Assembly: GCA_021775735.1 (NCBI GenBank)
Contig: JAJFHG010000012.1
Coordinates: 1 to 64,000, forward strand
From: Hyphomicrobiaceae bacterium
GTDB lineage: Bacteria; Pseudomonadota; Alphaproteobacteria; Rhizobiales; Hyphomicrobiaceae
Reading direction: 5' to 3'
DNA length: 64,000 nucleotides
Under the pieces are notes generated by a model. The model was not told where the DNA came from, made no database searches, and saw only the letters and a list, made by a program, of their open reading frames with translations. Positions 30,851-47,040 of this stretch are shown here, piece by piece (position 1 is the stretch's first letter; each line of letters begins with the position of its first letter). Both the position numbers and the translations under genes were made by a program.

Positions 30851-32602
30851 TTATTGCTGCTTTCCGACAGGTTCTCCAGCTGTGAGACGTGGTGTGCTGT
30901 CGATGCTTGAAGCGACAAACTCCGTGGTAACAAAGTCCGATCCGCTTCCAAGATCCAAGTCTTTGCGCCAAAGCCATGTGGTTCTTGTTCCATCTTCACC
31001 ACCATTTGCCGTTTGGCAGGAAAAGCCCGCGTCCTTAAATAAGTCACGAGAGGGTGCGTTTCTTTCTGTGGGAATGACCGTGGCCTCGACTTCATCAATC
31101 CCGCACTCCGTAAAATGTTGTACGAGTGCTGCAAGAAATGCGCGTTCGATTTCTCGGCCGATTACGCGGCAACTCATCAAAAACGTGATGAGGTCTGCAC
31201 CGTTGCTGTCTAAACGTGCAGTGGCACAGGCCACGATTCCGTGACTACCAAAGTTATCGTTGAGCCGACCTAAGAAAACGCGATACTTGCGATTGTCAGC
31301 CAACATGGCAGCCAGTTCGGCCTCGCTTATGCGTCGCGCGGTGGGGTTAAACTGATTGGTGCGCGCGTGCATTTGAGCGATGCGTGGCAGTGTCGCTGTG
31401 GTCATTTCCTCGACGTAGAGCCGCTGACCAAGCTGTGTTAGATAATCCTCAAAACTAGCCGTCTTGCTTTTTAAGGCGCGCCCTCTGCTTTGAACGGCGT
31501 AGAGATCTGACCGTTGTCTGTCCTCCTCCGTCAATCGGAGCGGCCATGTCGGTGTGTAGTTGCGCAAAAAATCTGACCGAACCGCAGGATCAGCCGGCAA
31601 TTCTGGAACGCGCACTTCTGGAGCCAAGTGGCGCATCGCTTCGCGTTCATGGGGGCTATCGTCAAGAAATACAAAACTGTCGAGTCCAAGATTAAGCTCC
31701 TGAGCAAGAGATCTGATGTTGTCGGACTTGAGGTTCCAGTTAATTCGGTGGCCGACAAAATCATCGCGCCTCAGAACCATACCTGGATGTTCGTCGAAAA
31801 CATTCAGAACGTCTTCATCGTTCTTGCTCAAAATCACCAGCAACAGTCCCTGTCCCTTCAAGCGCAAGCACTGTTCTTGAAAGGTCTTGAATGCGTTGCC
31901 GGGAAAGTCGTCGTTACAGTCAAGCCCTGACATGCCGTCTTCACCGTAGGTGCCGCGCCATAAAGTATTGTCGAGGTCGAGTGCGAGTACTTTGACAGGT
32001 TTTGAATTCTGCAAAGCAAACGCGTTGGAAAACCCTTGTGCGAGTGCCTTTGTTGCCTCCATCGAATAGGGGATGCGGCCGTAAAGCCAGAGTTTTGCAT
32101 CCGACCTCTCGCAGGGAGCGATGGTTGTCATGGCAAGATTCGTATCGATCAACGTAATACGATTATGTCTTTGTGCTATCTCGCCTAGTTGTTGGTTGAA
32201 ATAGCTTGCAAGATAACCTGCGCCATCGGTGTGAAATGGATCGAGAAAGCCAGCCGACGGCGAAGTGGGTGATGGCAGGCTATTAATGAAGAGTGGACAG
32301 TTGTGCGAGTCCATAAATTTTTCGATTGCAGCCATGAACGTACTTGTTTTGGTTTCAAGTAAGTGCCGGGCGTGTTCGGGAGCATGGCGCCAATCGCGGT
32401 CGAAAAACCCTTGTGAGTCCATTTGAATGATAACCGCATCCAAACCTTCAACGTTGGACTCAAGCAACTCAGGAATTACGTTGCCAAAACCACCGCAACT
32501 TATTTGCGCGTCGTAGTGAGGTACGGCAAAGGCCGGTGCCAGCTCCTGCTTCAACAGATCACTGGTGGCAAAACTCAACAGACGCAGTTGAACAGGCGCC
32601 AA
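30851..32602 (-). CDS. FkbH-like HAD protein (glyceryl-ACP type)
   Basis: A 583-residue FkbH-family protein: an SGNH-like N-terminal region (about 1-190), a HAD phosphatase core with VLALDLDNTLWRG and FVFLDDSPHEREA, and a C-terminal GNAT-like region (MHARTNQFNPTARRI, then SCRVIGREIERAF). Known FkbH proteins move a glyceryl unit from 1,3-bisphosphoglycerate to an acyl carrier protein, with dephosphorylation, giving glyceryl-ACP. That would supply a three-carbon starter or extender for the adjacent acyl-chain genes. The start is a TTG at 32602 with a poor ribosome-binding site. It follows the MaoC-SDR gene on the same strand with a gap of about 90 bases, so the two are likely co-transcribed. 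Confidence 0.82.
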   Translation of the reverse strand: MAPVQLRLLSFATSDLLKQELAPAFAVPHYDAQISCGGFGNVIPELLESNVEGLDAVIIQMDSQGFFDRDWRHAPEHARHLLETKTSTFMAAIEKFMDSHNCPLFINSLPSPTSPSAGFLDPFHTDGAGYLASYFNQQLGEIAQRHNRITLIDTNLAMTTIAPCERSDAKLWLYGRIPYSMEATKALAQGFSNAFALQNSKPVKVLALDLDNTLWRGTYGEDGMSGLDCNDDFPGNAFKTFQEQCLRLKGQGLLLVILSKNDEDVLNVFDEHPGMVLRRDDFVGHRINWNLKSDNIRSLAQELNLGLDSFVFLDDSPHEREAMRHLAPEVRVPELPADPAVRSDFLRNYTPTWPLRLTEEDRQRSDLYAVQSRGRALKSKTASFEDYLTQLGQRLYVEEMTTATLPRIAQMHARTNQFNPTARRISEAELAAMLADNRKYRVFLGRLNDNFGSHGIVACATARLDSNGADLITFLMSCRVIGREIERAFLAALVQHFTECGIDEVEATVIPTERNAPSRDLFKDAGFSCQTANGGEDGTRTTWLWRKDLDLGSGSDFVTTEFVASSIDSTPRLTAGEPVGKQQ

Positions 32603-32694
32603 TGTATTTTCATTTGTTGAAGCGCTTATGGCGATGACTTTATCTCCGAGGCATTGCGGGGGCAGATCTTTGCGAAATCAATAGGGCAAAGCTG

Positions 32695-33966
32695 CTAGAC
32701 CATGACCTCGCCTCCGGCAACGAGCAGGTTCTCGCCAGTAATAAAATTGGCATAGGGTGAAACGAGTAAGAGAACGGCACCTGCTACATCTTCCGGTGTT
32801 GCTAGGCGCCGCAATGGTGTCCGCGACACCATCATTTGGCGTATTCTATCAGGAATCTCTGTCGTGAGATCTGTCTCCGCCATTGAGGGCGACACCATGT
32901 TTACGCGCACACCCTTTGGACCAAGTTCTTGTGCGAGATTCTTGCTCAGCGCCAGGAGTGCTGCCTTAGCGGAAACATAGGGCGCCCAGCTGTATGCCGT
33001 GCGCCCGAGCGCTGCTGTGCTGAGCACGTTAACAATTTGTCCCTTGCATGCCTTGAGAGCGGGAAGCGCGGCTTGCGTCACATGGAATACGGATCCAACA
33101 ATCTGCTCGTGAGCACAAGACATGTCGTCCCAGTTGAACGATTCAAATGATCCAGATCGAATCTTTGGACCAGCATTGTTGATCAAGATATCAATGCTAT
33201 CTTCAGAACCAATATCCTCAATCATCCGTGAGACCTCAGCAGCTTGTGTAACATCGGCCTTTATTTTGACTGCGGAGCCTCCACGCTGTTCAAGCTCGCG
33301 GACTAAACTCGCAGCAGCATGTTCGCTTTTGTGATAGTTGACATAGACTTTTGCTCCGTGTTGGCAAAGAACGGTAGCAGTAGCCCGGCCAATACCACGC
33401 GAGGCTCCGGTGATCAGTGCGGTACGATTTTTTAGAAGGTCTCCTGAAAATTGCGCATTCAGTCTGTCCGACATGACCGCATCCTCTGCTTTAATGCGCA
33501 ACACTTTGACTTTTGCAGTTCCCTTGAGAACGCGGTCGCCATGTTGGTTGATGATCTCTGTTTCTACAGTGAGTGTTCGTGTCGCACGGTCGACCTTCTC
33601 GACAACGCCACGGGCTTCCACGGTGTCCCCAATAAAAACCGGTTTAGTAAAGTCAAAACTCTGCGAGAGATAGAGTGCACCATGTCCGGGAATTTTCATG
33701 CCAACGAGTGTGGACAGTAGGCTTGCATGCAGAAAGCCATGGACAACTCTCTGCTCAAATTCAGTGCGTGCGGCAAACTCATCGTCGACATGCAAGGCAT
33801 TATAATCACCACTGAGACGCGCAAACGCGGCCACGTCCTCGGCGGTGATCGTTCGACTGACACTATCGCTATAACCTGGGTGAAGCTCCTCAAGCCTATC
33901 CCTTTGTCGACCGGTTTTCAGCACTGATTGAGTGTTCGGCCGCTGATCTTGGTTCATAAAGGGCAA
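32695..33966 (-). CDS. MaoC hydratase - SDR ketoreductase fusion
   Basis: A 423-residue fusion. Residues about 30-155 form a hotdog (R)-specific enoyl hydratase (FARLSGDYNALHVDDEFAA, with Asp and His of the hydratase 2 motif; HGFLHASLLSTLVG). Residues about 178-423 are a FabG-like SDR with TGASRGIGRAT, NNAG, and the catalytic Ser and YxxxK (LSTAALGRTAYSWAPYVSAK). One protein could therefore carry out the keto-reduction and dehydration steps of chain elongation, on acyl-ACP or acyl-CoA. It faces acpXL head-to-head; the ~260-base region between them holds an FNR-type box. Upstream starts (MPF and MNQ) differ by three codons. Confidence 0.88.
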   Translation of the reverse strand: MPFMNQDQRPNTQSVLKTGRQRDRLEELHPGYSDSVSRTITAEDVAAFARLSGDYNALHVDDEFAARTEFEQRVVHGFLHASLLSTLVGMKIPGHGALYLSQSFDFTKPVFIGDTVEARGVVEKVDRATRTLTVETEIINQHGDRVLKGTAKVKVLRIKAEDAVMSDRLNAQFSGDLLKNRTALITGASRGIGRATATVLCQHGAKVYVNYHKSEHAAASLVRELEQRGGSAVKIKADVTQAAEVSRMIEDIGSEDSIDILINNAGPKIRSGSFESFNWDDMSCAHEQIVGSVFHVTQAALPALKACKGQIVNVLSTAALGRTAYSWAPYVSAKAALLALSKNLAQELGPKGVRVNMVSPSMAETDLTTEIPDRIRQMMVSRTPLRRLATPEDVAGAVLLLVSPYANFITGENLLVAGGEVMV

Positions 33967-34040
33967 GATCCTTCCCTGTTGGGTTAATCGTCATGGGTTG
34001 AATTCGTCGCAACCATAATTTGGTGGACACAGCATGAATG

Positions 34041-34052
34041 TGATCCAGATCA
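34041..34052. promoter_or_regulatory. FNR-type box TGATCCAGATCA, upstream of acpXL
   Basis: Perfect TGAT-N4-ATCA palindrome about 190 bases before the acpXL start and about 75 bases before the divergent MaoC-SDR start. It is embedded in AATGTGATCCAGATCAGTTTGT, which matches the box at 41134 in flanks as well. It is a likely binding site of the FNR-like protein encoded at 39536. Confidence 0.75.
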
Positions 34053-34227
34053 GTTTGTCTCTGTGATGGTCAGACTAACGTTCGAAGTGAGGCGTTTGGA
34101 GAAGCACACGCAGTGTGTTTTAGGCGTTGCCTCAAGATGTACTGCGTTGGTCGTCAGGTGTTCTTGAGTTTGCAAAGTCAACTTGCCGCACTTGGCGCCT
34201 CAGGATCAATAAATGATGGGGGTTCTC

Positions 34228-34521
34228 GTGTCTTCGACATTTGAAACGGTTGCCGAATATATTTCGGAAATTTGCGACATACCTCGAGATAAGATCACGT
34301 TAGAAAGTCATGTAACGGAGGATCTAGGTGTTGATAGTCTCGATTTTCTAGATGCGGTCTTTAACATCGAGCAGGCCTATAACATCAGTGTCCCGCTTGA
34401 AGACTGGACTCAAGAAGTTAACGACGGAAAGGTCAAAGGCTCACGTTATTTCGTACTGAAGAATTTTTGTGCTGAAATCGACAAACTGATCGCGTCGAGC
34501 GGTACCCAAGTCGCGGTATAA
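34228..34521 (+). CDS. acpXL: Acyl carrier protein AcpXL
   Basis: A 97-residue carrier protein dedicated in rhizobia to the very-long-chain (27-hydroxyoctacosanoate type) chain of lipid A. The phosphopantetheine Ser lies in TEDLGVDSLDFLD, and the AcpXL-specific signature follows (VPLEDWTQEVNDGKVKGSRYFVLKNFCAEIDKL), which ordinary AcpP lacks. Start: the GTG at 34228 after GGGGGT yields the usual AcpXL beginning (MSSTFETVAEYI); an ATG at 34213 would add five residues. It is first in the operon acpXL-fabZXL-fabF2XL-fabF1XL-fabG-adh2XL; the stop overlaps the next start (TAATG). Confidence 0.93.
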   Translation: MSSTFETVAEYISEICDIPRDKITLESHVTEDLGVDSLDFLDAVFNIEQAYNISVPLEDWTQEVNDGKVKGSRYFVLKNFCAEIDKLIASSGTQVAV

Positions 34522-35045
34522 TGCTCTTGCAAGTTCCCGATCCACCGGTCCAGGATATGCAGATTGACCACTTTCAGTTGGTCAGTGATGTCGAGCATCT
34601 TGATAAGCAGGCTGTGAAAATTACGACGCGCGCGCGCGTACCAGAGGATCACACGATCTTTTCCGGACATTTCCCCGGTCGTCCTCTTATGCCCGGGGTT
34701 TTGCTGTCAGAGTTGATGGCGCAATCGTCCGGCTTCCTGCTGCTCTCGCTCGCCGATTTCAAGAAGATGCCGTTTCTTGCCGCGTTAAAGGAAGTAAAAC
34801 TGCGAGAATTTGTATTACCAGGAACAGACCTCACGTGCCAGGCGGAACGAATACATGATGGTTCTGGTTATGCAGTGATGAAAAGCCGGATTTTGCGATC
34901 CGTGGACAAAAAACGCGTTTGCGATGGAACGCTGACATTTCGAATTGTGCCTTTTGCAAATGAAGAATTGCACCAGCACATGCTCGCGCGTGCGCGCGAG
35001 GTGGGGCTTGCAAGCAACACGTCCGGCATGGAGGGGGCAGATTGA
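34521..35045 (+). CDS. fabZXL: 3-hydroxyacyl-ACP dehydratase of the VLCFA operon (FabZXL)
   Basis: A 174-residue hotdog-fold dehydratase of the FabZ type. The catalytic His is in FSGHFPGRPLMPG and the Glu in LLSELMAQSSG, with the usual spacing. It dehydrates 3-hydroxyacyl-AcpXL intermediates during elongation. The N-terminal 30 residues are longer than in FabZ and a short extension follows the domain. Its ATG overlaps the acpXL stop and its stop overlaps the TTG start of the next gene, so the operon is tightly coupled. Confidence 0.9.
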   Translation: MLLQVPDPPVQDMQIDHFQLVSDVEHLDKQAVKITTRARVPEDHTIFSGHFPGRPLMPGVLLSELMAQSSGFLLLSLADFKKMPFLAALKEVKLREFVLPGTDLTCQAERIHDGSGYAVMKSRILRSVDKKRVCDGTLTFRIVPFANEELHQHMLARAREVGLASNTSGMEGAD

Positions 35046-36253
35046 GCACCAGTGTCATCATTAGCGGGATTGGTCTTCTTAGCGCACTGGGTGAGGGCCC
35101 GGTGGCTCATTGGGACAAGCTTCAACACCGGGGTGCACAACCTGTTATCGAGACCAAGAGATTTGCGCCCTATCCTGTACATCCCCTGGGACCAGTCGAC
35201 TTTTCATCACAAATTTCAAAAAAGGGCGACCTGCGGCAGATGGAGCCGTGGCAGCGGATTGGAACGTTCGCGGCCGGCCTTGCGCTGAACGATGCTGGGA
35301 TTGCTGGAAAGTCAGACTATCTCGACAAAACCGATATGATCGTTGCAGCGGGCAGCGGTGAACGTGACACGGCGACTGATATGAAAGTGTTGGCAAACAT
35401 CGCCGATCGTGATGATGGGGACATTCGTGCGAACGAGATTTTGCCAAGTAACTTGCGGCCCACGCTGTTCCTAGCGCAACTATCAAATCTCTTGGCTGGA
35501 AATATATCTATTGTCCACAAAGTGACGGGATCGTCGCGCACATTCATGGGCGAGGAGATGGCCGGAGTAAGCGCCGTTGAAACAGCGGTGCGCCGTATCA
35601 AGATGGGGCAAGGTGAGTTATTTCTCGTCGGTGGTGCGTTTAACTCAGAGCGTGAGGACATCCTGCTGAACTTCGAGCTTGGTGGCATGTTGTTGCAGGG
35701 TGAGTTCAAGTCAATCTGCGAACGCGCACGCAATGGGGCGTCTGGCTTTGTTCCCGCCAGCGTTGGTGCTTTTCTCGTGTTGGAGGAGAAATCTCATGCT
35801 GAGGCACGTGGCGCAAAAATCTACGCAGAAATTGAGGACGTTCAGTCGACACGGTGCAATCGACAAGAGGGAACCGCAACCGACAACGTACGTGCGCTGT
35901 TCACGCGCATTGAACCAGAACTATCTAAGGGTCCGCTGCCTGTCTTAAGTGGTGCGAGTGGTGTTCAACCCATTCTAAATGAGGAATTGGCATTCCTTAA
36001 TGACCTCACCGAGAGAGGCTACGACCCCGCCATCCGGTTCTATGGTTCTGTGCTTGGTCACGGTGTCGAGGCTCAATTGCCCGTTGGCATCGCCCTGGCC
36101 GCGATAACAATACAACAGCGTAGATTTTTTCCGCCGTTTGATGCGGGTAGTGAGGAACACGATTTCCCAGGTTCTCCTGAGCAAGTTCTCGTTACAGGCT
36201 TGGGTCATTGGCGCGGTGAAGCGATCGCCCTCGTTACAAGAGCGGGGCATTGA
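35042..36253 (+). CDS. fabF2XL: Ketosynthase-like chain-length factor (FabF2XL), no active-site Cys
   Basis: A 403-residue thiolase-fold protein. At the place of the KS active-site motif (TACxSG) it has ISIVHKVTGSSRTFMGEE, with no Cys and an insertion of about 11 residues compared with FabF. The partner gene has a full active site. In the Rhizobium VLCFA cluster the equivalent FabF2XL pairs with FabF1XL, much as KS-alpha and chain-length factor pair in type II polyketide synthases; that it sets chain length here is inferred. The start is a TTG at 35042, preceded by GGAGGGG. The stop overlaps the fabF1XL start. It is about 60 percent similar by eye to the protein at 41209. Confidence 0.88.
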   Translation: MSTSVIISGIGLLSALGEGPVAHWDKLQHRGAQPVIETKRFAPYPVHPLGPVDFSSQISKKGDLRQMEPWQRIGTFAAGLALNDAGIAGKSDYLDKTDMIVAAGSGERDTATDMKVLANIADRDDGDIRANEILPSNLRPTLFLAQLSNLLAGNISIVHKVTGSSRTFMGEEMAGVSAVETAVRRIKMGQGELFLVGGAFNSEREDILLNFELGGMLLQGEFKSICERARNGASGFVPASVGAFLVLEEKSHAEARGAKIYAEIEDVQSTRCNRQEGTATDNVRALFTRIEPELSKGPLPVLSGASGVQPILNEELAFLNDLTERGYDPAIRFYGSVLGHGVEAQLPVGIALAAITIQQRRFFPPFDAGSEEHDFPGSPEQVLVTGLGHWRGEAIALVTRAGH

Positions 36254-37554
36254 TGGCAGGACAGCGACAGCTGGACAAAAGAGGGCGCCCGGTCGTGGCC
36301 ATCACAGGGATGGGCGTTATCACGTCTGCCGGACGTGGCGTCGAAGCAAACTGGAAAGCGCTTACCGCCGGCACCTCTGGATTACGACAAATCAGCCGTT
36401 TTTCAACGCAGGGATTGCGGTCTGACGTTGCGGGATGTGTGGATTTCATGGACGTTGAACCTTATTCGGCGTTCGATCTCTCTCACGCAATGGCGTCAGC
36501 GGTTGCTCATGAGGCACTTTCGCAAGCGGCCATCGCCAGCAAAAACTCTTTCCCAGGCCCGTTGTTTATTGCAACCCCTCCGTCGGAACTCGAATGGCCA
36601 CAATTGAAAGCGCTATACGAAAGAAAACCAGCCGGGAAATCTGACAATGTTTATCGGCATATGGCGGCCGTTGCGCGCAATGGTGGGCAAAACAATCAAT
36701 TTAATTCTTTTGCTGATCATGTCCGGTTTGCAAGCCTTGGTGCACACATTGCCGACAGGTTCGGCACACGCGGACAGCCAATTTCGGTGTGCACGGCGTG
36801 TGCTTCTGGCGTCAGCGCTGTTCAACTCGGCCTCGAAACAATCCGGCGCGGAGAAACAGATGCCGCATTGTGTATGGGGGTCGACGCTACCGTTCACCCA
36901 GAAGGTCTAATTCGTTTCTCATTATTGTCTGCACTATCAACTCATACCAACCCAGCAGCAAAGGCATCGCGCCCGTTCGACAAAACCCGCAACGGTTTTG
37001 TTATTGCCGAAGGTGCGGCTGCGTTGGTTCTGGAGTCTTATGATGGTGCTAAAGCGCGCGGCGCACAGATTTTAGGAATAGTCCGCGGTTGTGGTGAGCG
37101 CGCCGATCATTTTCACCGCACGCGCTCAAAACCCGATGGATCAGCTATCATCGGAGCAATCGTCAACACTCTAGCTGATGCGTGCACAGAACCTGATGAC
37201 ATCGACTACATCAATGCACATGGCACAGGCACACCTGAAAACGACAAGATGGAATATCACGCCCTTAGATCAGTGTTCGGCAACTCGATCACGACCCTGC
37301 CTGTCAGTTCAAACAAGTCGATGATTGGACATACCCTGATCGCAGCCGGTGCCGTTGAGGCCGTTTTCTCCCTCAAAACGATACTGGCCGGCACGCTGCT
37401 GCCAACAATAAATTACGATATGCCCGACCCAGATATTCCACTTGATGTGGTGGCAAATGAAAGCCGATCGGCACGCGTTGATACGGTTCTGTCCAACTCC
37501 TTCGGATTTGGCGGACAGAATGTATGTGCCGTGTTTGCCGCCGAACCTGCGTAA
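36253..37554 (+). CDS. fabF1XL: Beta-ketoacyl-ACP synthase of the VLCFA operon (FabF1XL)
   Basis: A roughly 433-residue condensing enzyme with the full C-H-H triad: ISVCTACASG (Cys about residue 183), NAHGTGTPENDKMEY (first His) and SSNKSMIGHTLIAAGAVEA (Lys and second His). It ends with the family motif SNSFGFGGQN. It extends acyl-AcpXL in 2-carbon steps together with FabF2XL. I prefer the ATG at 36253 to the TTG at 36250. Residues about 115-165 carry an insertion (ELEWPQLKALYERK) that is shared with the paralogue at 42489 and is absent from housekeeping FabF. Confidence 0.92.
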   Translation: MAGQRQLDKRGRPVVAITGMGVITSAGRGVEANWKALTAGTSGLRQISRFSTQGLRSDVAGCVDFMDVEPYSAFDLSHAMASAVAHEALSQAAIASKNSFPGPLFIATPPSELEWPQLKALYERKPAGKSDNVYRHMAAVARNGGQNNQFNSFADHVRFASLGAHIADRFGTRGQPISVCTACASGVSAVQLGLETIRRGETDAALCMGVDATVHPEGLIRFSLLSALSTHTNPAAKASRPFDKTRNGFVIAEGAAALVLESYDGAKARGAQILGIVRGCGERADHFHRTRSKPDGSAIIGAIVNTLADACTEPDDIDYINAHGTGTPENDKMEYHALRSVFGNSITTLPVSSNKSMIGHTLIAAGAVEAVFSLKTILAGTLLPTINYDMPDPDIPLDVVANESRSARVDTVLSNSFGFGGQNVCAVFAAEPA

Positions 37555-37581: not shown

Positions 37582-38349
37582 TTGTCAACTACATTGAATA
37601 ACAAACAAGTGTTTGTAACCGGCGGTGGTCGCGGGATTGGCGCCGGTGTCGTTCGTATGCTCGCCAAAGAAGGATATGATGTAACGTTCAGCTACCGAAG
37701 CGCTGAAACGAAAGCAGACACGCTGCTCTCTACTCTGATCGAACAGTATCCAGATCAAAATTTTGCGGCCCTCCGTGCTGATTTTGCCATGCGTGAAGAC
37801 GTTGAAAAAATCGCAGCGCACCTTTCGAAATCAAATCAGCTTTATGGTTTCGTTCACAATGCCGGCATGACCTATGATGCGCTTGCACCAATGGTTGACC
37901 AATCACGCGGTGAAGACCTTATGCAGGTCAATTTCTGGTCGATGACGCAACTGATAAAGGCAGCGGTGCGACCAATGATGCGAGAAAAATCCGGCCGCAT
38001 TATTGCGATTGGTTCGATCACGGCGCGCATGGGTGCGCAAGGTAACGCAACTTATGCCGCGACCAAAGGCGCGACGGCCAGCTTTATGAAGTCACTGTCG
38101 GTGGAAGTTGCCCGAAAAGGGGTGACTGCAAATGTCGTGTCTCCGGGTTATGTCGACACCGAAATGCTTGCCACCTACGCCGACAAGCGTGAAGCGGTGG
38201 AAAAACGAATTCCAATTGGCAGATATGCAAAGTCAAACGAAATTGGATCTCTGGTCGCCTTTTTGGTCGGCCCCCAAGCGGCCTGCATCACCGGCGCGGA
38301 AATCCCCATTGACGGCGGACTTTCTGCATCGATCGGGTTTAAGAACTAA
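37582..38349 (+). CDS. 3-ketoacyl-ACP reductase FabG-like (VLCFA operon)
   Basis: A 255-residue SDR with FVTGGGRGIGAGVV, FVHNAGMTYD, a catalytic Ser-YxxxK set (IGSITARMGAQGNATYAATK) and C-terminal EIPIDGGLS. It reduces 3-ketoacyl chains on the carrier protein with NADPH. The start is a TTG at 37582 with TGGAGAG upstream; the gap after fabF1XL is 27 bases. The published rhizobial VLCFA cluster goes fabF1XL-adh2XL without a reductase in between, so this is an added gene and makes the operon more self-contained. Confidence 0.88.
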   Translation: MSTTLNNKQVFVTGGGRGIGAGVVRMLAKEGYDVTFSYRSAETKADTLLSTLIEQYPDQNFAALRADFAMREDVEKIAAHLSKSNQLYGFVHNAGMTYDALAPMVDQSRGEDLMQVNFWSMTQLIKAAVRPMMREKSGRIIAIGSITARMGAQGNATYAATKGATASFMKSLSVEVARKGVTANVVSPGYVDTEMLATYADKREAVEKRIPIGRYAKSNEIGSLVAFLVGPQAACITGAEIPIDGGLSASIGFKN

Positions 38350-38363
38350 AGTGGGATTATATT

Positions 38364-39398
38364 ATGCAGGCACTGCGGATTGAAGGGGAACGTGATCTCA
38401 AGGTCGTCGATGTTGATCCACCATCTGCTCCCGTTGAGGGTGAAGTTCAGGTGCGGATCAAAAATGTTGCGCTTAATCATATAGATGTTTGGGGCTGGCG
38501 AGGTATGGCGTTTGCCAAACGCAAGTTGCCAGTGATCGCTGGTGCTGAAGCGGCTGGCAACATCGTGGCGGTTGGCCCAAATGTAACTGGACTTGATATT
38601 GGACAAACGGTGGCGCTTTATGGCGCACTGACCTGTGGCAATTGCAGTGCCTGCAAACAGGGACGGGACAATTTCTGCGAGTCTGGCGGTTCGATCGGCA
38701 ACATTTATGGATTTCATATCGACGGATTTTGTCGTGAACTCATGAATATTCCGGCGCGTCTTGTGGTTCCTGCTCCGGACGGAGTCGACTGTGTTGGCGC
38801 AGCACTTTCTTCAATTACGTTTGGCACTCCTGAACACATGCTGTTTGACAATGCCAAACTGATGTCGGGTGAAACGGTGCTGATTCATGCAGGCGGGTCT
38901 GGCATTGGTTCGGCGGCCATTCAGCTGGCCAAAGCCGTCGGAGCCATTGTCATAACGACAGTGGGCAGCGATGAAAAAGGCGATAAGGCCAGTGCACTCG
39001 GTGCTGATCATGTCATAAATTACCGAACTCAATCCTTCGAGAGTCGGGCACGACGATTGACCGACAAACGCGGTGTCGATGTGGTGTTTGAGCATGTCGG
39101 CCCCGAAACCTGGTCAGGTTCAATCTTTTCTCTCAAGCGTGGCGGACGCCTTGTAACCTGCGGTTCTACCACTGGCATCCAGGCCAAAATGAACCTATTC
39201 ACGCTGTTTCAACAGCAGTTGAGAATCTTTGGAAGTTTTGGTTGTAGTTTGGCCAATATGCGCGAGGTGATGGACAAAATGGCACGCGGTGAGGTCAGCC
39301 CGGTTGTCGACACGACGCTTTCGCTTAAAGATATTGAATTGGGACTTGAACGCCTCGAAAAACGTGATGTGTTTGGTAAAATTATTTTGACGCTGTGA
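38364..39398 (+). CDS. adh2XL: Zinc-binding alcohol dehydrogenase/enoyl reductase (Adh2XL-like)
   Basis: A 344-residue medium-chain dehydrogenase. It has the catalytic-domain segment VIAGAEAAGNIVAVGPNV, a structural-zinc-like Cys set (YGALTCGNCSACKQGRDNFCES) and the NAD(P)H-binding motif HAGGSGIGSAAIQLAKAVGA. In the rhizobial VLCFA cluster the gene in this position (adh2XL) probably makes the enoyl reduction. It starts 14 bases after fabG. The acyltransferase LpxXL, which usually closes the cluster, is missing; an FNR-like regulator follows instead. Confidence 0.85.
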   Translation: MQALRIEGERDLKVVDVDPPSAPVEGEVQVRIKNVALNHIDVWGWRGMAFAKRKLPVIAGAEAAGNIVAVGPNVTGLDIGQTVALYGALTCGNCSACKQGRDNFCESGGSIGNIYGFHIDGFCRELMNIPARLVVPAPDGVDCVGAALSSITFGTPEHMLFDNAKLMSGETVLIHAGGSGIGSAAIQLAKAVGAIVITTVGSDEKGDKASALGADHVINYRTQSFESRARRLTDKRGVDVVFEHVGPETWSGSIFSLKRGGRLVTCGSTTGIQAKMNLFTLFQQQLRIFGSFGCSLANMREVMDKMARGEVSPVVDTTLSLKDIELGLERLEKRDVFGKIILTL

Positions 39399-39535: not shown

Positions 39536-40285
39536 ATGCAGAAAAAAGACAAGATGGAACCAACGAGTGACGACCAGCAGGTGCCTGAGAGGTGCGGCAC
39601 ATGTGCGATTCGTCAAAGCGGCATTTGCAGTGTCCTGACTGGCGAAGACGTAGATCGCCTTAGTGATATTGCCTATCATCGTCAATATCGTCCAGGCGAA
39701 ACAATTCTTTTGTACGATGACAGTCCCGACTTTCTTGCTGCCATGCGCTCAGGCGTAGTTAAACTGTCCAAAGTTCTTCTCGATGGCCGTCAGCAGATTG
39801 TTAGCTTATTGTTCCCCCCAGATTTTCTTGGCGGAATTTTTTCGAGGCCTACACCCTACTTTGCGCATGCCGTGACAGATGTCGAGTTGTGTTGTTTCAG
39901 GCGGGCTAACTTTGAGTCTATGCTCAAAGACCAACCGGAGATGAGCCGGCACATGGTGGAGCATAGTCTTGACAAGCTCAATACGGCGCACGACTGGATG
40001 GTATTATTGGGGCGCAAGACAGCTGAAGAGCGCGTGGCAAGCTTGCTTTATCTGCTTGTTACCCGCTCGAAACTCATGAGAGTTGGCGACACTCAAGTAG
40101 AGACAGCCAATACAGGGTTTGAAGTGCATCTTAAGCGCGAAGAAATGGCAGACTTCTTGGGTTTGACCTACGAAACGGTCATTCGACAAATTAAAGCGCT
40201 CAATAACGAGAACATAATCCGCTTAAATGGGCGGCGAGAATTTTCTGTTCCAGACGTTGCAGCGTTAGCGAAAGCTGCCGGATAG
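39536..40285 (+). CDS. FNR/FnrL-type Fe-S oxygen-responsive regulator
   Basis: A 249-residue CRP/FNR-family regulator. The N-terminal Cys set C20-x2-C23-x7-C31 (CGTCAIRQSGIC) plus C119/C120 (ELCCF) matches the ligands of the FnrL [4Fe-4S] cluster, so it should sense oxygen. The effector beta-barrel follows (GETILLYDDSPDFLAAMRSGVVKL), then the dimer helix and the helix-turn-helix LKREEMADFLGLTYETVIRQIKAL. In the recognition helix, FNR has E-xx-S-R; here it is E213, I216, R217, so the residue that reads the first T of TTGAT is altered. The three candidate boxes nearby (TGAT-N4-ATCA) likewise lack a fixed first T. It is probably the local regulator of both ketosynthase operons. Confidence 0.88.
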   Translation: MQKKDKMEPTSDDQQVPERCGTCAIRQSGICSVLTGEDVDRLSDIAYHRQYRPGETILLYDDSPDFLAAMRSGVVKLSKVLLDGRQQIVSLLFPPDFLGGIFSRPTPYFAHAVTDVELCCFRRANFESMLKDQPEMSRHMVEHSLDKLNTAHDWMVLLGRKTAEERVASLLYLLVTRSKLMRVGDTQVETANTGFEVHLKREEMADFLGLTYETVIRQIKALNNENIIRLNGRREFSVPDVAALAKAAG

Positions 40286-40365: not shown

Positions 40366-40458
40366 GAACAGCGGCGCCGTTTCAAGCGCAAATTCTCCAC
40401 AATAAGACAATTGGGTTGTCCGTATGCCCAACAGTCTGTTTTTTTGGTGGAGGTAAAA

Positions 40459-41061
40459 TTGCTGAATTTTGATGCTATTGCACGTGCACCGGTAACGACC
40501 GAACCCATCAGTTGTTTCATCGTTCCAGGTGTTCTGAGCGCAGTGGATCTTGCGGCAGTTCGGGCGGATTTCCCCCCTATCTGCGGACCCCGGGAATATA
40601 GCTTATCCGAGCTCATCTATGGACCTGCGTTTGCACACCTAGTTGATGAGATCATCGCTTCCAAATTTATGAGCACTGTTGAGAAGAAGTACGGTGTCAA
40701 TCATTCCGGGCGTGAGATGGTTATTTCAGTTTGCAACCAGTACGGTGAACAAAATCAAGAGCACCGGATGAATTCGGCTGGGGAAACCATTACATGCTTA
40801 TTTTATCTCAATAGCATCTGGAACAGTGATGATGACGCGTCTCGCGGCGGCGACGAATACAATAATTTCTTTGCAAAGCGCCAACTGAGTGGCGGTACAC
40901 TGGCTTCATTCATCACAGGCGATAACTCGGGTCACATGCATCAACCGCACAAAGGGGAGCTTTGCTGTGTCACAATGACCTGGAGCATAACGCGGCACCG
41001 TAACGACGACCTTTTAGCTGCGGTCGGAACGCGTAACCGTGGTCACCACAATACAGCATAG
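40459..41061 (+). CDS. 2OG-Fe(II) oxygenase-like protein with altered metal site
   Basis: A 200-residue protein matching the jelly-roll pattern of 2OG-Fe(II) oxygenases related to prolyl hydroxylases: ITCLFYLNSIW, SRGGDEY (GG loop), GGTLASFI and a final VTMTW strand. The usual HxD is not seen: the equivalent segment reads QEHRMNSAGE, with Met or Asn for the Asp. The distal His (HMHQP) remains. The conserved Arg that holds 2OG is not visible (GELCCVTMTW). It may be an inactive relative or use a changed metal set. The start is a TTG at 40459 with GGAGGT five bases upstream, more credible than the ATG at 40411. It has its own FNR-type box. Confidence 0.6.
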   Translation: MLNFDAIARAPVTTEPISCFIVPGVLSAVDLAAVRADFPPICGPREYSLSELIYGPAFAHLVDEIIASKFMSTVEKKYGVNHSGREMVISVCNQYGEQNQEHRMNSAGETITCLFYLNSIWNSDDDASRGGDEYNNFFAKRQLSGGTLASFITGDNSGHMHQPHKGELCCVTMTWSITRHRNDDLLAAVGTRNRGHHNTA

Positions 41062-41145: not shown

Positions 41146-41208
41146 GCTTGTGTTGCTTGTCACTCGGGCATTTTCCCGTCCGTGTGATGAATGAGATTTT
41201 GGGGACTC

Positions 41209-42477
41209 ATGACCCAACGACAAGAGACGCGACAAGCGCGGGATGGACCCGAGGCCTGGATTACAGGCATTGGGCTTATCAGCTCACGTGGCGACAGTGG
41301 AGAAGCACACTGCGCTCTGCTTTCAACGGGTGCAGGGCGTCCGGTGGTGGATGAAGAGAGTTTTGCACCCTATTCGGTGCACCCGCTGGGCGATATCGAC
41401 TTCCCATTGCAGATCCCGCGCAAAGGAGACCTGCGTCAGATGGGTCGGTGGCAGCGCATTGGTGTCTACGCAGCTGGCCTGGCACTTGCGGATGCAGGTC
41501 TGGTCGACAACCAAGATTTACTGGACAAAACAAACATCGTTGTAGCGGCCGGCAATGGCGAGCGCGACGAGGATGCAGACGGGGCTGTGCTTCGCGCAAT
41601 TATTGAAGCTGCAGAGTCTCATGATGCGCTGGAAGATGTGTTGAACGAGACACTGCAGACATCGTTGCGGCCGACATTGTACCTATCGGAATTATCCAAC
41701 CTTCTAGCAGGCAATATCTCTATCGTTCATGGCGCAACGGGGTCATCGCGTACGTATAAGGGCGAAGAAATGGCTGGCGTTAGCGCCGTTGAAGATGCCG
41801 CTCGGCGGATCGCGTCCTCACAAGGCGAGCTTTTTCTTGTAGGGGGTGCCTTCAACAGTGAACGCGCGGATCTCACCCTGACGTTTGAGCTCTGCGATGC
41901 ACTTTGGCGCAAGCCCTTTAAATCTGTGTGGGAGCGCGCGCGTAACGGTGGTGGCTTTGTCATGGGGAGTGTCGGCGCCTTTCTTTTACTCGAGGCAGAC
42001 ACACATGCGATTGCACGGGGGCAAAAGCCCTATGCGAAAATCACCAGCATTACATCAGGGGATGGGAGCCGGTCACCAGACGCAGACCGTAACCTGAGTC
42101 GTATGGAATCGCTGGTGGACGAACTCGTTGCAGGCGACACGACCGGATCACTTGGCATCTTAAGCGGAGCAAGCGGTGTAGAACCGGCCACCAGTGATGA
42201 ACTGAAATGGCTCAATGGACTTGGTCTAGACGCAAGGGGCATTACAACAGCGATCCGGGCTTATGGAACGATGGTTGGACATTCGGTCGAAGCTCATTTT
42301 CCTGCCGGGATTGCCCTTGCTGCTTTGGCGATCTCAAAAGGTCAGTTCTTTCCGCCTTTCGATAAATCCGGACACGAATGCTCAATTGAGGAGACGCCGG
42401 ATCGTATTCTTGTTTCTGGTTGGGGGCATTGGCGTGGCAATGGCCTAGCGCTCGTTGAAAGCGCTGTTGCGCAGTGA
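41209..42477 (+). CDS. FabF2XL paralogue: ketosynthase-like chain-length factor, no active Cys
   Basis: A 422-residue thiolase-fold protein closely resembling the FabF2XL at 35042: same YSVHPLGDIDFPLQIP region, same ISIVHGATGSSRTYKGEE segment (no Cys, same insertion) and same C-terminal LVSGWGHWRGNGLALVE. It likely forms a heterodimer with the next gene product. The start at 41209 after TTTTGGGGA is preferred to an ATG at 41191. Together with the next gene it is a second KS/chain-length-factor pair; the internal sequence divergence from the first pair (about 40 percent by eye) suggests a different chain length or substrate. Confidence 0.85.
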   Translation: MTQRQETRQARDGPEAWITGIGLISSRGDSGEAHCALLSTGAGRPVVDEESFAPYSVHPLGDIDFPLQIPRKGDLRQMGRWQRIGVYAAGLALADAGLVDNQDLLDKTNIVVAAGNGERDEDADGAVLRAIIEAAESHDALEDVLNETLQTSLRPTLYLSELSNLLAGNISIVHGATGSSRTYKGEEMAGVSAVEDAARRIASSQGELFLVGGAFNSERADLTLTFELCDALWRKPFKSVWERARNGGGFVMGSVGAFLLLEADTHAIARGQKPYAKITSITSGDGSRSPDADRNLSRMESLVDELVAGDTTGSLGILSGASGVEPATSDELKWLNGLGLDARGITTAIRAYGTMVGHSVEAHFPAGIALAALAISKGQFFPPFDKSGHECSIEETPDRILVSGWGHWRGNGLALVESAVAQ

Positions 42478-42488
42478 AGGGGGACAGG

Positions 42489-43775
42489 ATGGTAACGCAT
42501 CCACGAGATCACAGAGGCCGTCCAATTGTGGCAGTAACCGGATTTGGCGTACTGACCTCTCTTGGAACGGGAAAAAAGCAAAATTGGCAAGCAATTACAG
42601 AGGGCAAGTCAGGCCTCCACACCATCACGCGCTTTGCAACCGATGGACTAAAAACGACTGTTGCGGGAACAGTCGATTTTATGGATCTGGAGTCATATTC
42701 GGCCCCTCTGCTTTCTACGGCGATGGCTGCCGAAACCATACGAGAGGCTGTCGATGAGGCAGGACTTGGCACGAAAGGTCAATTCCCCGGACCGCTCTTT
42801 CTTGCAACACCGCCCACAGAGCTTGAATGGCCGCAACGGAAGGCTTTGTTTGCCGAGTCGAATGGTGCCAAGCCCGATCCGGACTATCAGGATTTGCTGA
42901 GGGCGGCGAGAACGGGTCGCTTCAAAAATCTCTATCCATATTTTCAATTTGCCAGTGTTGGTGAAGCACTCGCCGAAGAATTTGGAACTAAGGGATTGCC
43001 GATTTCACTCTCAACGGCATGCGCCTCTGGCGCCACAGCAATCATGCTTGGTGTTGAGGCTATCCGTCGAGGTGACACAGAGGCGGCATTGTGTGTGGCG
43101 ACTGATGGTTCTGTTCACGCAGAAGCGCTCATCCGATTCTCATTGCTGTCTGCGTTGTCGACCTACAACGAGCCACCGCATAAGGCATCGCGTCCATTTG
43201 CCAAGGATCGGGCGGGCTTCGTAATGGCTGAAGGTGCTGGCGCATTTGTTCTGGAATCATATTCAGCAGCAAAAGCTCGTGGCGCAAAAATCCTTGGTGT
43301 TATCAGAGGCTGTGGAGAACGAGCCGATGAATTTCACCGCACGCGTACCCACCCTGAGGGCAAACCCATTATCAACACCATTCGTGGCGCGCTCAACGAT
43401 GCCGCGATTGCTCCCGACGAAATTGATTACGTGAACGCCCACGGTACTGGCACCCAAGAAAACGACAAGATGGAGTACCTCGCCCTCAAGGCTGTACTCG
43501 GAGATGCGATCGAGACAACACCGGTTAGTTCTAATAAATCAATGATCGGACATACGCTGACAGCAGCCGGTGCCATTGAAGCGGCCTTTTCTCTGATGGC
43601 TATACATAACAGCACCTTACCTCCGACCATGAACTATGACATTCCCGACCCCGATATTCCGCTTGATGTCGTTGCCAACAAGAGTAGGGCGGCCACAGTC
43701 GACACGATACTTTCCAATTCATTTGGCTTTGGCGGACAGAACGCAAGCCTCATACTGTCGGGAGAACCGGCATGA
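42489..43775 (+). CDS. FabF1XL paralogue: beta-ketoacyl synthase with full triad
   Basis: A 428-residue condensing enzyme with ISLSTACASG (active Cys), NAHGTGTQENDKMEY and SSNKSMIGHTLTAAGAIEA. It is very close to FabF1XL at 36253, including the ELEWPQRKALF insertion and the closing SNSFGFGGQNASL. The ATG at 42489 follows AAGGGGG; the GTG at 42474 overlapping the upstream stop is a less likely alternative. It starts 12 bases after the chain-length-factor stop and its stop overlaps the double-hotdog gene (ATGA). Confidence 0.88.
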   Translation: MVTHPRDHRGRPIVAVTGFGVLTSLGTGKKQNWQAITEGKSGLHTITRFATDGLKTTVAGTVDFMDLESYSAPLLSTAMAAETIREAVDEAGLGTKGQFPGPLFLATPPTELEWPQRKALFAESNGAKPDPDYQDLLRAARTGRFKNLYPYFQFASVGEALAEEFGTKGLPISLSTACASGATAIMLGVEAIRRGDTEAALCVATDGSVHAEALIRFSLLSALSTYNEPPHKASRPFAKDRAGFVMAEGAGAFVLESYSAAKARGAKILGVIRGCGERADEFHRTRTHPEGKPIINTIRGALNDAAIAPDEIDYVNAHGTGTQENDKMEYLALKAVLGDAIETTPVSSNKSMIGHTLTAAGAIEAAFSLMAIHNSTLPPTMNYDIPDPDIPLDVVANKSRAATVDTILSNSFGFGGQNASLILSGEPA

Positions 43776-44797
43776 TACAGTTTGGGACGCTGCAGAAAGG
43801 CGATCAGGCTCACGATAAATTATGTTGGGAAGACTTCTCGGTCGGGCAGACGTTTCACTTTGGACACAACGAGATTAGCCGAGATGAGATTGTAAGATTT
43901 GCACGTCTCTATGATCCCCAGCCGTTTCATATCGATGAACAAGCCGCAAAGCTGACGATGCTCGACGGTTTGGCCGCCTCTGGTTGGCATGTCTGCACAA
44001 TTTTTATGCGCATGCTTGATGAGGGTTTGCTGTCACGGTGCCAGTCTGCGGGAATTGACATGATAGACGAAGTCCAGTGGCGGGTTCCAGTCCGGCCCAA
44101 CGATCAGTTGCGTTGCCGTGTCACCTGTTTGGATATGCACCCTAATTCAGGCAAGTTGGGTTATGGCCTTTGTGCATTCTATTGCGAGGTCATAAATTCT
44201 CACGCGCATACCGTGATGACTTGGCGTTTGCAGCTCAAGCTCGTAAGTCGCGACGGGATTAACGCCCAATGCGCCGCAATCCCTACGAGCATAACGCGGG
44301 CTTCAAGCGTTACCCGACGGCCGAAAGAGCACGCAATCAACTATTTCGAAGATGTACACCCCGGAGACGATATCGCACTCGGAAGCTACACGCTGTCGCT
44401 GGAAAGAATTCAGGCATTCAAAAACAACTATGGTCACCAACCAATTCATCCTGACGCCAAGTTGGGACATGTCAGTGCGAGTGGTTGGCATCTAACTTCG
44501 ATTTGGATGCAGCGTTTGGTTCAGTATTATTCTCGCGAAGCACACTGGCTGAAGAGTAGCGGGTGTGAAGTTCCCCAACTTGGTCCATCCCCGGGGGTCA
44601 AAAATCTGCGTTGGCACCGACCTGTGTATGAGGGTGATACCTTGAACTTCTCGTGTTGGGCTGAACGAAAAATTGGAATGACTTCAAAACCTGGTTGGGG
44701 GTTGTTGTACGTTGGAAGTGATGTGTACAACCAGAACCGCCAGCGCGTTCTGTCTTTTCATGCCTTCTTATTCTTAGAATGCCGCAAGAAAAAATGA
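43772..44797 (+). CDS. Double-hotdog MaoC-like dehydratase
   Basis: A 341-residue protein of two hotdog domains. The first half carries a hydratase-type motif (FARLYDPQPFHIDEQ, Asp and His present) and the SGWHVCTIFMRML helix. The second half repeats the pattern as FKNNYGHQPIHPDAKLG with SGWHLTSIWMQRLV, but the catalytic Asp is replaced by Gly. This matches two-domain MaoC hydratases in which one half is structural. It is probably the dehydratase of the second ketosynthase set, in place of a FabZ. The start overlaps the ketosynthase stop. Confidence 0.82.
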   Translation: MIQFGTLQKGDQAHDKLCWEDFSVGQTFHFGHNEISRDEIVRFARLYDPQPFHIDEQAAKLTMLDGLAASGWHVCTIFMRMLDEGLLSRCQSAGIDMIDEVQWRVPVRPNDQLRCRVTCLDMHPNSGKLGYGLCAFYCEVINSHAHTVMTWRLQLKLVSRDGINAQCAAIPTSITRASSVTRRPKEHAINYFEDVHPGDDIALGSYTLSLERIQAFKNNYGHQPIHPDAKLGHVSASGWHLTSIWMQRLVQYYSREAHWLKSSGCEVPQLGPSPGVKNLRWHRPVYEGDTLNFSCWAERKIGMTSKPGWGLLYVGSDVYNQNRQRVLSFHAFLFLECRKKK

Positions 44798-44838
44798 TGG
44801 TGGTTTAGTGAACCATTTGCCAGTTGTTGAAGGATAAC

Positions 44839-45114
44839 ATGCTCGATCCAATGACAAAAAATGAGAATCTTAAACTCAGCGAGGATGCAACCATGCGACC
44901 TGAAATTAGGAAAATATTTTCCGATGTCTTTCAGTTCCATAACGTCCATTTTAACACGTCACGCGAAGAAGTTGAAAAATGGGATTCGCTTCAGCACGTT
45001 GCTCTGATCGCTTCGGTTGAGAGCACGTTTAGTATATCTCTGTCGATGGATGAGATGATGGAGATGGTTAGTGTTCCCGATATTCACGCAATTTTAGATC
45101 GTCACGGCGTCTGA
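44839..45114 (+). CDS. Acyl carrier protein of the second ketosynthase set
   Basis: A small carrier protein of about 91 residues, or 73 if the second start at 44893 (ATG after GAGGATG) is used. The phosphopantetheine site is EKWDSLQHVALIASVE with Ser, and the following helix (FSISLSMDEMMEM) has the acidic character of ACPs. It has no AcpXL-type tail, so it is not a simple duplicate of acpXL and would define a different carrier for the second ketosynthase pair. The gap after the double-hotdog gene is about 40 bases. Confidence 0.85.
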   Translation: MLDPMTKNENLKLSEDATMRPEIRKIFSDVFQFHNVHFNTSREEVEKWDSLQHVALIASVESTFSISLSMDEMMEMVSVPDIHAILDRHGV

Positions 45115-45324: not shown

Positions 45325-47040
45325 ATGCCAAATTCATCACATCAATTCGACCAATCGAATGGATGTCAGTCGAACAGGCCCCACCTCGCTCGTCCCTGGA
45401 GCCAGCGTGCTAAACACTACGACGTTATTGTTGTTGGGTCGGGTTACGGGGGCGGTGTCGCCGCCGCGCGCTTGGCGCGCGCAGGCAAACGTGTTGCTGT
45501 TCTTGAACGCGGTCGCGAATACGTGCCAGGTGAATTTCCCAACCGTTTTTCCGATCTAAAAAGTCAAATACGGATTTCAAGCGCGGGCAAAAGCGTTGGT
45601 CCATCCGCAGCGCTTTATGATATTCGAGTTGGCGCGGATATGCATGTTATGGTTGGGTGCGGACTTGGTGGTGGCTCTTTGGTCAATGCTGGCGTTGCAC
45701 TGCGCCCGGACACCCGGGTCTTCGACGATACGATCTGGCCCGAAGCTCTTCGTCGCGACGGCCTTCTGGATCAGGGTTTTGAGCGCGCGGTGCATTGGAT
45801 TCGGCCAGCCCGTCACCCGGGCGCATCAAGTATGAGCAAATACCGAGCGCTGAAGGCGGCTGGTGACAACCTTGGACACGTTATCAATGATAGTCCACTT
45901 ACCATTGGTTTTGATGAGACAGTCAATCCCGCTGGCGTTGCACAGCCTGCGTGCACCTTGTGTGGAGATTGCTGTGGTGGATGCAACGTTGGTGCAAAAA
46001 ATACCGTTGCACAGACGTACCTTGCAGAGGCCGCGCGCCACGACGCTGACATGTTCACAGATGTTTCAGTCCATCATATCGAGAAACAATCTTGCGGTAC
46101 GTGGTCCGTCATCACACAACAAGACGGTCAATATGGTGCAACAGAACGCTTAGAGGCTGACGTTGTCATGCTTTGCGCTGGCACGCTGGGTTCGACGGAG
46201 ATTCTGCTACGGTCCGCAGCTCAAGGATTGGCTTGTTCCAGTCAGATTGGGCAGCGCTTTTCAGCCAACGGCGACGTCATCGCTTTCGGCTACGGTGCCA
46301 AAACAACGATCAATGCGATCGGCGTTGGTTATCCGTCAAAGCTTGATGACCACCAAGTTGGCGGGGTGGTCTCCGGTCACATTGAGTTCAACGACCCGGA
46401 CAAGCTCGAAAATAGTGTCTGCGTTCTGGAGGGTGTTATCCCATCCGCGCTTGCTCCAATCTTACCGGTCTTGTTCCTGCCGGATGGGCGTCTCGTCGGT
46501 GCACTCAAAAGTTTAATCAAGGGTGTCTACAAAGGTCCGTTTGCGCATCTGCAAACATTTTTTGCGGTGTCGCACGATTCTGCCAAGGGTTGGTTCACGC
46601 TTGAGAATGATCGCATCTGCCTCAACTGGCCAGGCGCAAAAGACGAGCCGGTCTATGCGAAAGTCGATGCTGTGCTCTCCGACATTGTTGCCCATTCAGG
46701 TGGTGACTATGTTAAACATCCGCTTTCAGAAACGATTGCCGGCAACAAACCATCGACAGCGCACCCACTTGGAGGGTGTGCAATGAGCGAAGATGCTGCG
46801 CACGGGGTCGTCAATCACAAAAGTCAAGTTTTTGACACAACGCATGGAGCGACGACACGCAATGTTCACAAAGGACTATATGTCGTTGATGGCTCAATCA
46901 TCCCACGCTCGCTTGGCGTCAATCCGCTTTTAACAATCACCGCTCTGAGTGAACGTGCGCTGTTGCATTTTGCCAGGGATCACAATTTGCCCGATGATGA
47001 TGAGCAAGCCGCCGACATGCCGTCCCATCTTGTGTGTTAA
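45325..47040 (+). CDS. GMC-type FAD oxidoreductase (cholesterol oxidase-like)
   Basis: A 571-residue flavoprotein: the FAD motif YDVIVVGSGYGGGVAAARLARAGKRVAVLERG near residue 34, VGCGLGGGSLVN, a Cys-rich stretch (CTLCGDCCGGCNVGAKNT, five Cys), and C-terminal HPLGGCAMSED and VDGSIIPRSLGVNPLLTI. The Cys arrangement resembles that of cholesterol oxidase-like bacterial GMC enzymes and could bind a metal or Fe-S group. It probably oxidises an alcohol group on a lipid. AGGAAG precedes the ATG. It follows the ACP gene after a 210-base gap and may have its own promoter. Confidence 0.85.
   Translation: MPNSSHQFDQSNGCQSNRPHLARPWSQRAKHYDVIVVGSGYGGGVAAARLARAGKRVAVLERGREYVPGEFPNRFSDLKSQIRISSAGKSVGPSAALYDIRVGADMHVMVGCGLGGGSLVNAGVALRPDTRVFDDTIWPEALRRDGLLDQGFERAVHWIRPARHPGASSMSKYRALKAAGDNLGHVINDSPLTIGFDETVNPAGVAQPACTLCGDCCGGCNVGAKNTVAQTYLAEAARHDADMFTDVSVHHIEKQSCGTWSVITQQDGQYGATERLEADVVMLCAGTLGSTEILLRSAAQGLACSSQIGQRFSANGDVIAFGYGAKTTINAIGVGYPSKLDDHQVGGVVSGHIEFNDPDKLENSVCVLEGVIPSALAPILPVLFLPDGRLVGALKSLIKGVYKGPFAHLQTFFAVSHDSAKGWFTLENDRICLNWPGAKDEPVYAKVDAVLSDIVAHSGGDYVKHPLSETIAGNKPSTAHPLGGCAMSEDAAHGVVNHKSQVFDTTHGATTRNVHKGLYVVDGSIIPRSLGVNPLLTITALSERALLHFARDHNLPDDDEQAADMPSHLVC

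Follow-up and report, generated by a model that had tools for sequence, protein, structure and literature searches.

The acpXL-lpxXL locus of rhizobia, Agrobacterium and Bradyrhizobium combines the acyl carrier protein (ACP) AcpXL, the dehydratase FabZ, a FabF2/FabF1 pair, a zinc dehydrogenase and, partly, FabG, in an order shared by the locus discussed here (available parts of PMC11901934 and PMC5613085). In Bradyrhizobium, LpxXL attaches C26:25OH to lipid A (same part of PMC5613085). FkbH proteins are described in different surroundings. Their glyceryl-ACP chemistry is known from tetronate and methoxymalonyl pathways (PMC7489565, in excerpt), and FkbH is also a domain of the first module of oocydin OocJ, organized as DH-MT-FkbH-ACP, where the dehydratase (DH) and methyltransferase (MT) are regarded as inactive and a malonyl starter is predicted (PMC4552970, in excerpt). 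The present work concerns a stretch of 64,000 nucleotides, hereafter the window, from a Hyphomicrobiaceae bacterium (GenBank assembly GCA_021775735.1, contig JAJFHG010000012.1, positions 1 to 64,000; the source genome is a 3.17 Mb draft, 96.7% complete), in which a gene for an FkbH-like protein and a gene fusing a MaoC hydratase/dehydratase to a short-chain dehydrogenase/reductase (SDR) stand opposite an acpXL operon. In the loading module of bryostatin BryA, FkbH acts with a dehydratase and a ketoreductase (KR) to provide a D-lactyl starter. By family, the same three activities are found in the window, where they belong to separate proteins that would serve a type II fatty acid system in trans, and not to a modular polyketide synthase.

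By family assignment the locus is an acpXL-type locus for very-long-chain fatty acids (VLCFAs), with NF005079, NF005084 and NF005076 matched over their cut-offs, and FabZ besides. Compared with the canonical acpXL-lpxXL locus, it adds a second ketosynthase (KS)/partner pair, fkbH, MaoC-SDR and a second ACP (ACP2), while lpxXL was not found. With the tetronate and methoxymalonyl systems it shares, as far as the excerpt of PMC7489565 goes, a standalone ACP neighbour and the FkbH catalytic residues. By contrast, its FkbH is paired with MaoC-SDR and a VLCFA synthase, and among the genes scanned between 28627 and 47623 (the Crp-type gene not among them) there is no FkbG/I/J/K-type gene of the methoxymalonyl set fkbGHIJK (no acyl dehydrogenase, hydroxyacyl dehydrogenase or O-methyltransferase by fkbH) and no FabH-like tetronate enzyme. 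As in OocJ, FkbH has a dehydratase domain and an ACP for neighbours; unlike what the excerpt gives for OocJ (PMC4552970), the proteins are separate here, and MaoC and SDR have intact residues. We propose that fkbH, MaoC-SDR, ACP2 and the extra ketosynthase KS1 form a starter-unit module added to the acpXL-type locus, a proposal to which we give about equal chances of being right or wrong. Gene content, conservation, strict co-occurrence, intact residues, a KS1 clade of its own and an LpxXL that was not found describe a module that is real and strongly conserved.

The earlier note on this DNA had placed the FkbH-like and MaoC-SDR genes head-to-head with acpXL, and the open reading frames (ORFs), the profile matches and the orientation of relatives confirm it (Table 1). 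In the window, the acpXL start lies 246 bp from the MaoC-SDR gene. MaoC-SDR is divergent to acpXL in 28/28 FkbH-type genomes, namely 23 of the family and five more of the order (G112, G147, G159, G195 and G253; G numbers denote genomes, L numbers loci). For G147, in which a contig end truncates AcpXL and its match falls below the score filter, the orientation comes from a separate inspection. The MaoC-SDR match is separated from the AcpXL match by 135-352 bp in 27 genomes, and fkbH follows MaoC-SDR, co-oriented, in 25 of the 26 genomes where this can be determined, G147 being the exception (G064 and G253, where the contig breaks there, are outside this count). This arrangement is conserved, not a matter of chance, with the reservation that the 28 genomes are related and do not stand for 28 independent events; few gains and many losses may account for the way the module is shared.

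Within the family, co-occurrence is strict. Orthologs of FkbH (E values of 1e-146 or lower), MaoC-SDR and PRK06519, the FabF2-type partner of the VLCFA ketosynthases, are each found in 23/103 family genomes, and the 23 are identical; six further genomes have distant FkbHs only (28-39% identical). It is because the same 23 genomes hold both that we tie FkbH functionally to the VLCFA operon. The earlier note had already linked glyceryl loading to this operon; that link is strengthened by the operon type, the intact FkbH and the shared genomes, and what changes is the carrier, from AcpXL to ACP2. The window's genome has a single FkbH match, and relatives with FkbHs 52-67% identical are labelled Hyphomicrobium, Filomicrobium and Methyloligella. 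Two copies of PRK06519 are present in 22 of the 23 FkbH-type family genomes; in the remaining one, G077, the locus is interrupted by the end of a 9-kb contig. In the order sample, PRK06519 is found in 79/297 genomes, with two copies in eight (G318, with two non-overlapping fragments on two contigs, is counted as single-copy). Seven of these eight have an FkbH ortholog; the exception, G226, is 88% complete and fragmented, both of its copies being fragments at contig ends. An FkbH-family gene is present in five of the 71 genomes with a single copy; four of them have it on a different contig, and in G362 it is 1.4 Mb distant. A class-wide search for MaoC-SDR returned only the window's own genome out of 385, a weak absence with four candidates scored per genome.

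The ketosynthases tell which part of the synthase accompanies fkbH. A maximum-likelihood tree of 67 KSs places the 24 acpXL-proximal ones from FkbH-type loci in a clade by themselves (100/99), and the 23 distal ones, KS2, together with all of the 20 canonical VLCFA KSs that were sampled (100/99); the root is a midpoint, so that the direction of change is not readable, and pieces under 330 aa were left out of this tree and of the partner tree. Because KS1 forms a separate clade and KS2 groups with canonical enzymes, the trait that accompanies fkbH is, by sequence, KS1, while KS2 is an ordinary VLCFA enzyme. Partners of FkbH-type loci form one group in their own tree, the two copies not being cleanly separated in all genomes. 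All 67 KSs keep Cys184, His324, Lys356 and His361, which we take to be the catalytic residues; in the FabF2-type partners, Glu stands in place of the KS Cys in 70/70 aligned sequences. The PRK06519 proteins are, judged by their residues, not condensing enzymes, and since Glu replaces the catalytic Cys, the VLCFA ketosynthases look like pairs of the KS/chain-length-factor type. Both FabF2XL-type proteins of the window carry the annotation beta-ketoacyl synthase, yet they have no catalytic Cys.

The residues of the other enzymes are kept as well. FkbH matches TIGR01686 over residues 203-529 with 263.5 bits (cut-off 146.65); the HAD residues D209, D211, T213, K292, D314 and D315 together with C478, the last presumably the acyl-carrying Cys, are invariant in 43/43 aligned sequences, and S259 and K260 are each kept in 42/43 (L063, L070 and L110 are omitted from the count). 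In MaoC-SDR, PF01575 covers residues 35-137 (86 bits) and PF13561 residues 187-419 (188 bits); the MaoC dyad D54/H59 and the SDR residues Y330/K334 are invariant in 28/28 rows, and the presumed SDR serine position has Ser or Thr in 25/28. As these catalytic residues are kept, nothing suggests a general decay of the two proteins; we propose that FkbH loads ACP2 with a unit derived from glycerate and that MaoC-SDR processes the unit once it is ACP-bound. An AlphaFold model of FkbH, weak (five sequences, pLDDT 64, poor in the HAD part) and used for the domain outline only, has 3slr (BF1531) as its top Foldseek hit, then GNAT acyltransferases and, lower, a GDSL esterase. Most FkbH orthologs, with ORFs of about 720-770 aa (L077, L090-L105), have some 160 extra N-terminal residues that are missing in the window's subclade; in the L099 protein, the one that was scanned, this part is without a Pfam match. 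The gap between the MaoC-SDR and FkbH matches is 510-596 bp in most relatives and 60-96 bp in the window's subclade; an ACP gene between the two was considered and rejected, the gap being the N-terminal extension of FkbH.

Which ACP would FkbH load? The second ACP announced by the earlier note is real: it lies 12 kb from fkbH in the window, where it scores 18.2 bits against a Pfam cut-off of 20.8, and two of its orthologs pass that cut-off with 27.9 and 25.7 bits. ACP2 is found in 26/28 genomes, the contigs of G066 and G022 ending too early. In 22 of the 28 it shares the strand of fkbH and is no more than 390 bp away; in the four others (G000, that is the window's genome, G038, G021 and G089) it closes the locus at its far end, following KS2 and, where seen, MaoC-MaoC. 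Conserved fkbH genes away from ACP clusters, which the earlier note gave as grounds for abandoning its idea, were looked for in these genomes and not found. Among distant FkbH loci, an ACP-like gene is found on the same strand, no further than 750 bp away, in 14 of the 19 examined (at least L057, L059 and L061 are not among them). Because an ACP gene adjoins fkbH in most loci, gene position makes ACP2, not AcpXL, the most likely natural carrier of FkbH.

From these genes we infer the substrate, carrier, step order, product and destination of the proposed starter module. FkbH would take a three-carbon acid from 1,3-bisphosphoglycerate, with removal of the phosphate, and load it onto ACP2 to give glyceryl-S-ACP2. 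A glyceryl unit is formally a 3-hydroxyacyl unit; therefore the MaoC dehydratase could convert it to a pyruvyl-type unit, which the SDR would reduce to lactyl-S-ACP2. Alternatively, the glyceryl unit would be kept unprocessed. KS1 with its FabF2-type partner would then condense the unit with malonyl-ACP, the chain passing to AcpXL, where elongation by FabG, FabZ, the zinc reductase and KS2 would yield a very long chain of odd carbon number. The lactyl starter would leave a hydroxyl at omega-1, the unprocessed glyceryl an omega, omega-1 diol. FkbH, dehydratase and ketoreductase are present together and linked at the locus, their reactions on one ACP being predicted. The earlier note had proposed a glyceryl-derived starter; the linkage of the module favours it, with the modification that MaoC-SDR suggests processing before use, in our view to lactyl. 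In our view a starter derived from glycerate has much to recommend it; the lactyl product and its destination are hypotheses.

Several observations weigh against this proposal. ACP2 is about 12 kb from fkbH in the window's own subclade, and 5 of the 19 distant FkbH loci have no ACP-like gene at the sensitivity used. In G147, fkbH and MaoC-SDR sit on separate contigs, and the partner is not seen in the flanks available. Of the 28 FkbH-type loci, 18 have no fabG of their own, so that MaoC-SDR could equally serve elongation. A single literature search returned no lipid structure for this bacterial group, and searches for an FkbH-lactyl route of the bryostatin type gave no paper. Finally, omega-1-hydroxy VLCFAs are reported from canonical loci, which have no FkbH (available part of PMC5613085), and FkbH is, for this reason, not the general origin of the omega-1 hydroxyl. 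As for novelty, a full-text search of 5.39 million papers, with most subscription journals outside its scope, found no paper naming both FkbH and acpXL; the module is undescribed as far as such a search reaches, which does not prove it new.

FkbH and MaoC-SDR might instead make a small hydroxyacyl group that decorates a finished chain, as a tertiary acyl on the omega-1 hydroxyl, and provide no starter at all. Groups of this kind exist: 3-hydroxybutyrate is a tertiary acyl on lipid A in rhizobia, and malic acid reportedly plays this part in Oligotropha. FkbH units of polysaccharide-like clusters probably serve decoration too. Such a cluster is seen in L108 (G271:C16, 9252-14888), which is of polysaccharide type and comprises an AMP-ligase, an ACP, FkbH, a MaoC-SDR fusion and a KAS III. 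The fusion is 43-44% identical to the window's and the ACP neighbourhood is similar; however, the L108 FkbH is only 29% identical, KAS III takes the place of the KS/partner pairs, the AMP-ligase is additional, and the cluster is on another contig than the canonical acpXL locus of G271 (L135), itself without these genes. L108 also counts in favour of the starter module, since it looks like an independent reuse of FkbH/MaoC-SDR/ACP, as expected of a maker of small acyl-ACPs. In L067 (G024:C5, 7484-10931), a second, distant FkbH has a MaoC-SDR-like match (26%) about 0.9 kb off on the same strand, with an ACP-like gene between them. We nevertheless consider decoration unlikely: it leaves unexplained the extra KS1/partner pair that accompanies FkbH, and among the genes around the locus that at least 4 of 20 genomes share, no acyltransferase was recognised by reading (a family search was not made), the GNAT-like part of FkbH aside.

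It is similarly improbable that MaoC-SDR, with MaoC-MaoC, belongs to ordinary VLCFA elongation and that FkbH and ACP2 produce a unit of extender-like or regulatory kind with no relation to the starter. MaoC proteins are commonly enoyl hydratases or dehydratases, and the SDR could replace FabG in the 18 loci whose operon shows none. However, MaoC-SDR is also present where fabG lies within the cluster (the window, G038, G089, G112, G147, G159 and G195), it stands co-oriented next to fkbH in all determinable genomes but one, and neither it nor fkbH occurs in the fetched stretches of any of the 20 canonical loci, about half of which are also without fabG. The FkbG/I/J/K-type genes of methoxymalonyl extender synthesis, as said, were not seen among the scanned genes.

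As to the destination of the chain, LpxXL is encoded in 17 of the 20 canonical single-KS-pair loci; of the other three, two (L124 and L129) are cut short by contig ends, and the third, L130 (G189), has none in its remaining 3.4 kb. By contrast, 18 LpxL/LpxXL queries found no match in 54 stretches of FkbH-type loci, the window included. The window's genome has one Lip_A_acyltrans gene, on another contig, of the ordinary LpxL type; by sequence, the dedicated LpxXL of an acpXL-lpxXL lipid A locus is not found there. Exactly one such gene is found in 18/23 FkbH-type family genomes, and at least two in 5/23 as against 8/80 other family genomes (Fisher p 0.16, not significant). We built a tree of LpxLs from 11 loci of 10 FkbH-type genomes together with the window's own, from nine locus-negative loci and from the 17 canonical loci with LpxXL. 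The LpxLs of FkbH-type genomes and locus-negative relatives are 61-78% identical to that of the window's genome (41% for one divergent second copy) and interleave in the tree, with the 17 canonical LpxXLs apart on a 100/100 branch. Because LpxXL was not found and the LpxL is of an ordinary type shared with locus-negative relatives, lipid A as the destination, which the earlier note had in mind, is not supported, even though LpxL could still act. Tentatively, and somewhat short of probable, the starter proposal in its wider form has the odd-chain lipid of the module going to some acceptor that is not lipid A acylated by LpxXL. That the locus makes a rhizobial-style lipid A VLCFA to which FkbH gives an oxygenated terminus would agree with the AcpXL, FabZ, FabF pair and dehydrogenase of the canonical operon (available part of PMC11901934) and with an LpxL that could in principle accept the chain, but the LpxXL, tree and copy-number results just given make it quite improbable.

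Table 1. Features of the locus in the window, with the family matches or readings on which their names are based.
Feature	Position	Strand	Basis and remarks
FkbH-like protein, 583 aa	30851..32602	-	SGNH/GDSL-like N-terminal, HAD-IIIC phosphatase and GNAT-like acyltransferase domains
MaoC (hydratase/dehydratase) fused to SDR (ketoreductase), 423 aa	32695..33966	-	Pfam
Divergent intergenic region	33967..34212		presumably both promoters
AcpXL, VLCFA acyl carrier protein, 102 aa	34213..34521	+	equivalog NF005079, 136 bits (cut-off 83)
FabZ-type 3-hydroxyacyl-ACP dehydratase	34521..35045	+	PF07977 (Pfam FabA-like domain)
FabF2-type KS partner 1, PRK06519, chain-length-factor-like	35042..36253	+	NF005084, 530 bits; without active-site Cys
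KS1, extra acpXL-proximal ketosynthase	36250..37554	+	NF005076, 653 bits; Cys184, His324, Lys356, His361 intact
FabG-type ketoreductase	37582..38349	+	PF13561
Zinc-binding dehydrogenase, presumed enoyl reductase (Adh2XL-like)	38364..39398	+	PF00107/PF08240
Crp/FNR-type regulator	39536..40285	+	named by sequence reading, not by family search
Unknown-family protein	40411..41061	+	only in the window's subclade; orthologs in G038, G022, G021
FabF2-type KS partner 2	41191..42477	+	NF005084, 484 bits
KS2, canonical-type VLCFA ketosynthase	42474..43775	+	groups with canonical KSs in the tree
MaoC-type protein, apparently tandem hotdog (MaoC-MaoC)	43772..44797	+	PF01575 at residues 24-123; partial RipB/Ich match at 276-338
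ACP2, second acyl carrier protein	44824..45114	+	WDSL motif; below the Pfam cut-off here, orthologs above

The plus strand thus runs from acpXL through fabZ, partner 1, KS1, fabG, the zinc dehydrogenase, the Crp-type gene, the unknown gene, partner 2, KS2 and MaoC-MaoC to ACP2. Some of these genes are less widely shared. Orthologs of the Crp/FNR-type gene occupy the corresponding position in G038 and G089 and are partial in G022 and G021, and the MaoC-MaoC gene is near the locus in 7 of the 20 compared genomes, at differing positions. The unknown-family protein has no Pfam or NCBIfam match; its C-terminal half recalls 2-oxoglutarate oxygenases by reading, the metal ligands not being conserved. 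As a candidate omega-1 hydroxylase it was rejected: it has no family match, it is limited to four genomes including the window's, and His-x-Asp is not conserved. Directly after ACP2 comes a glucose-methanol-choline (GMC) oxidoreductase (45325-47040) with a partial cholesterol-oxidase-like match, for which tblastn gave no match in the relatives' stretches. Further away, 23879-26770 encodes a protein of 963 aa, probably secreted by reading, with a low-complexity C-terminus rich in Cys, Gly and Arg.

If the starter proposal is true, glycolytic 1,3-bisphosphoglycerate would be linked directly to the synthesis of very-long-chain lipids, and FkbH would be extended from polyketide and sugar-decoration clusters to a pathway resembling that of primary lipids. 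The terminal hydroxyl would be built in as a starter, making the origin of terminal oxygens in bacterial VLCFAs testable in a simple system. Odd-chain, terminally oxygenated lipids are predicted as a consequence, and they might serve as markers for these lineages.

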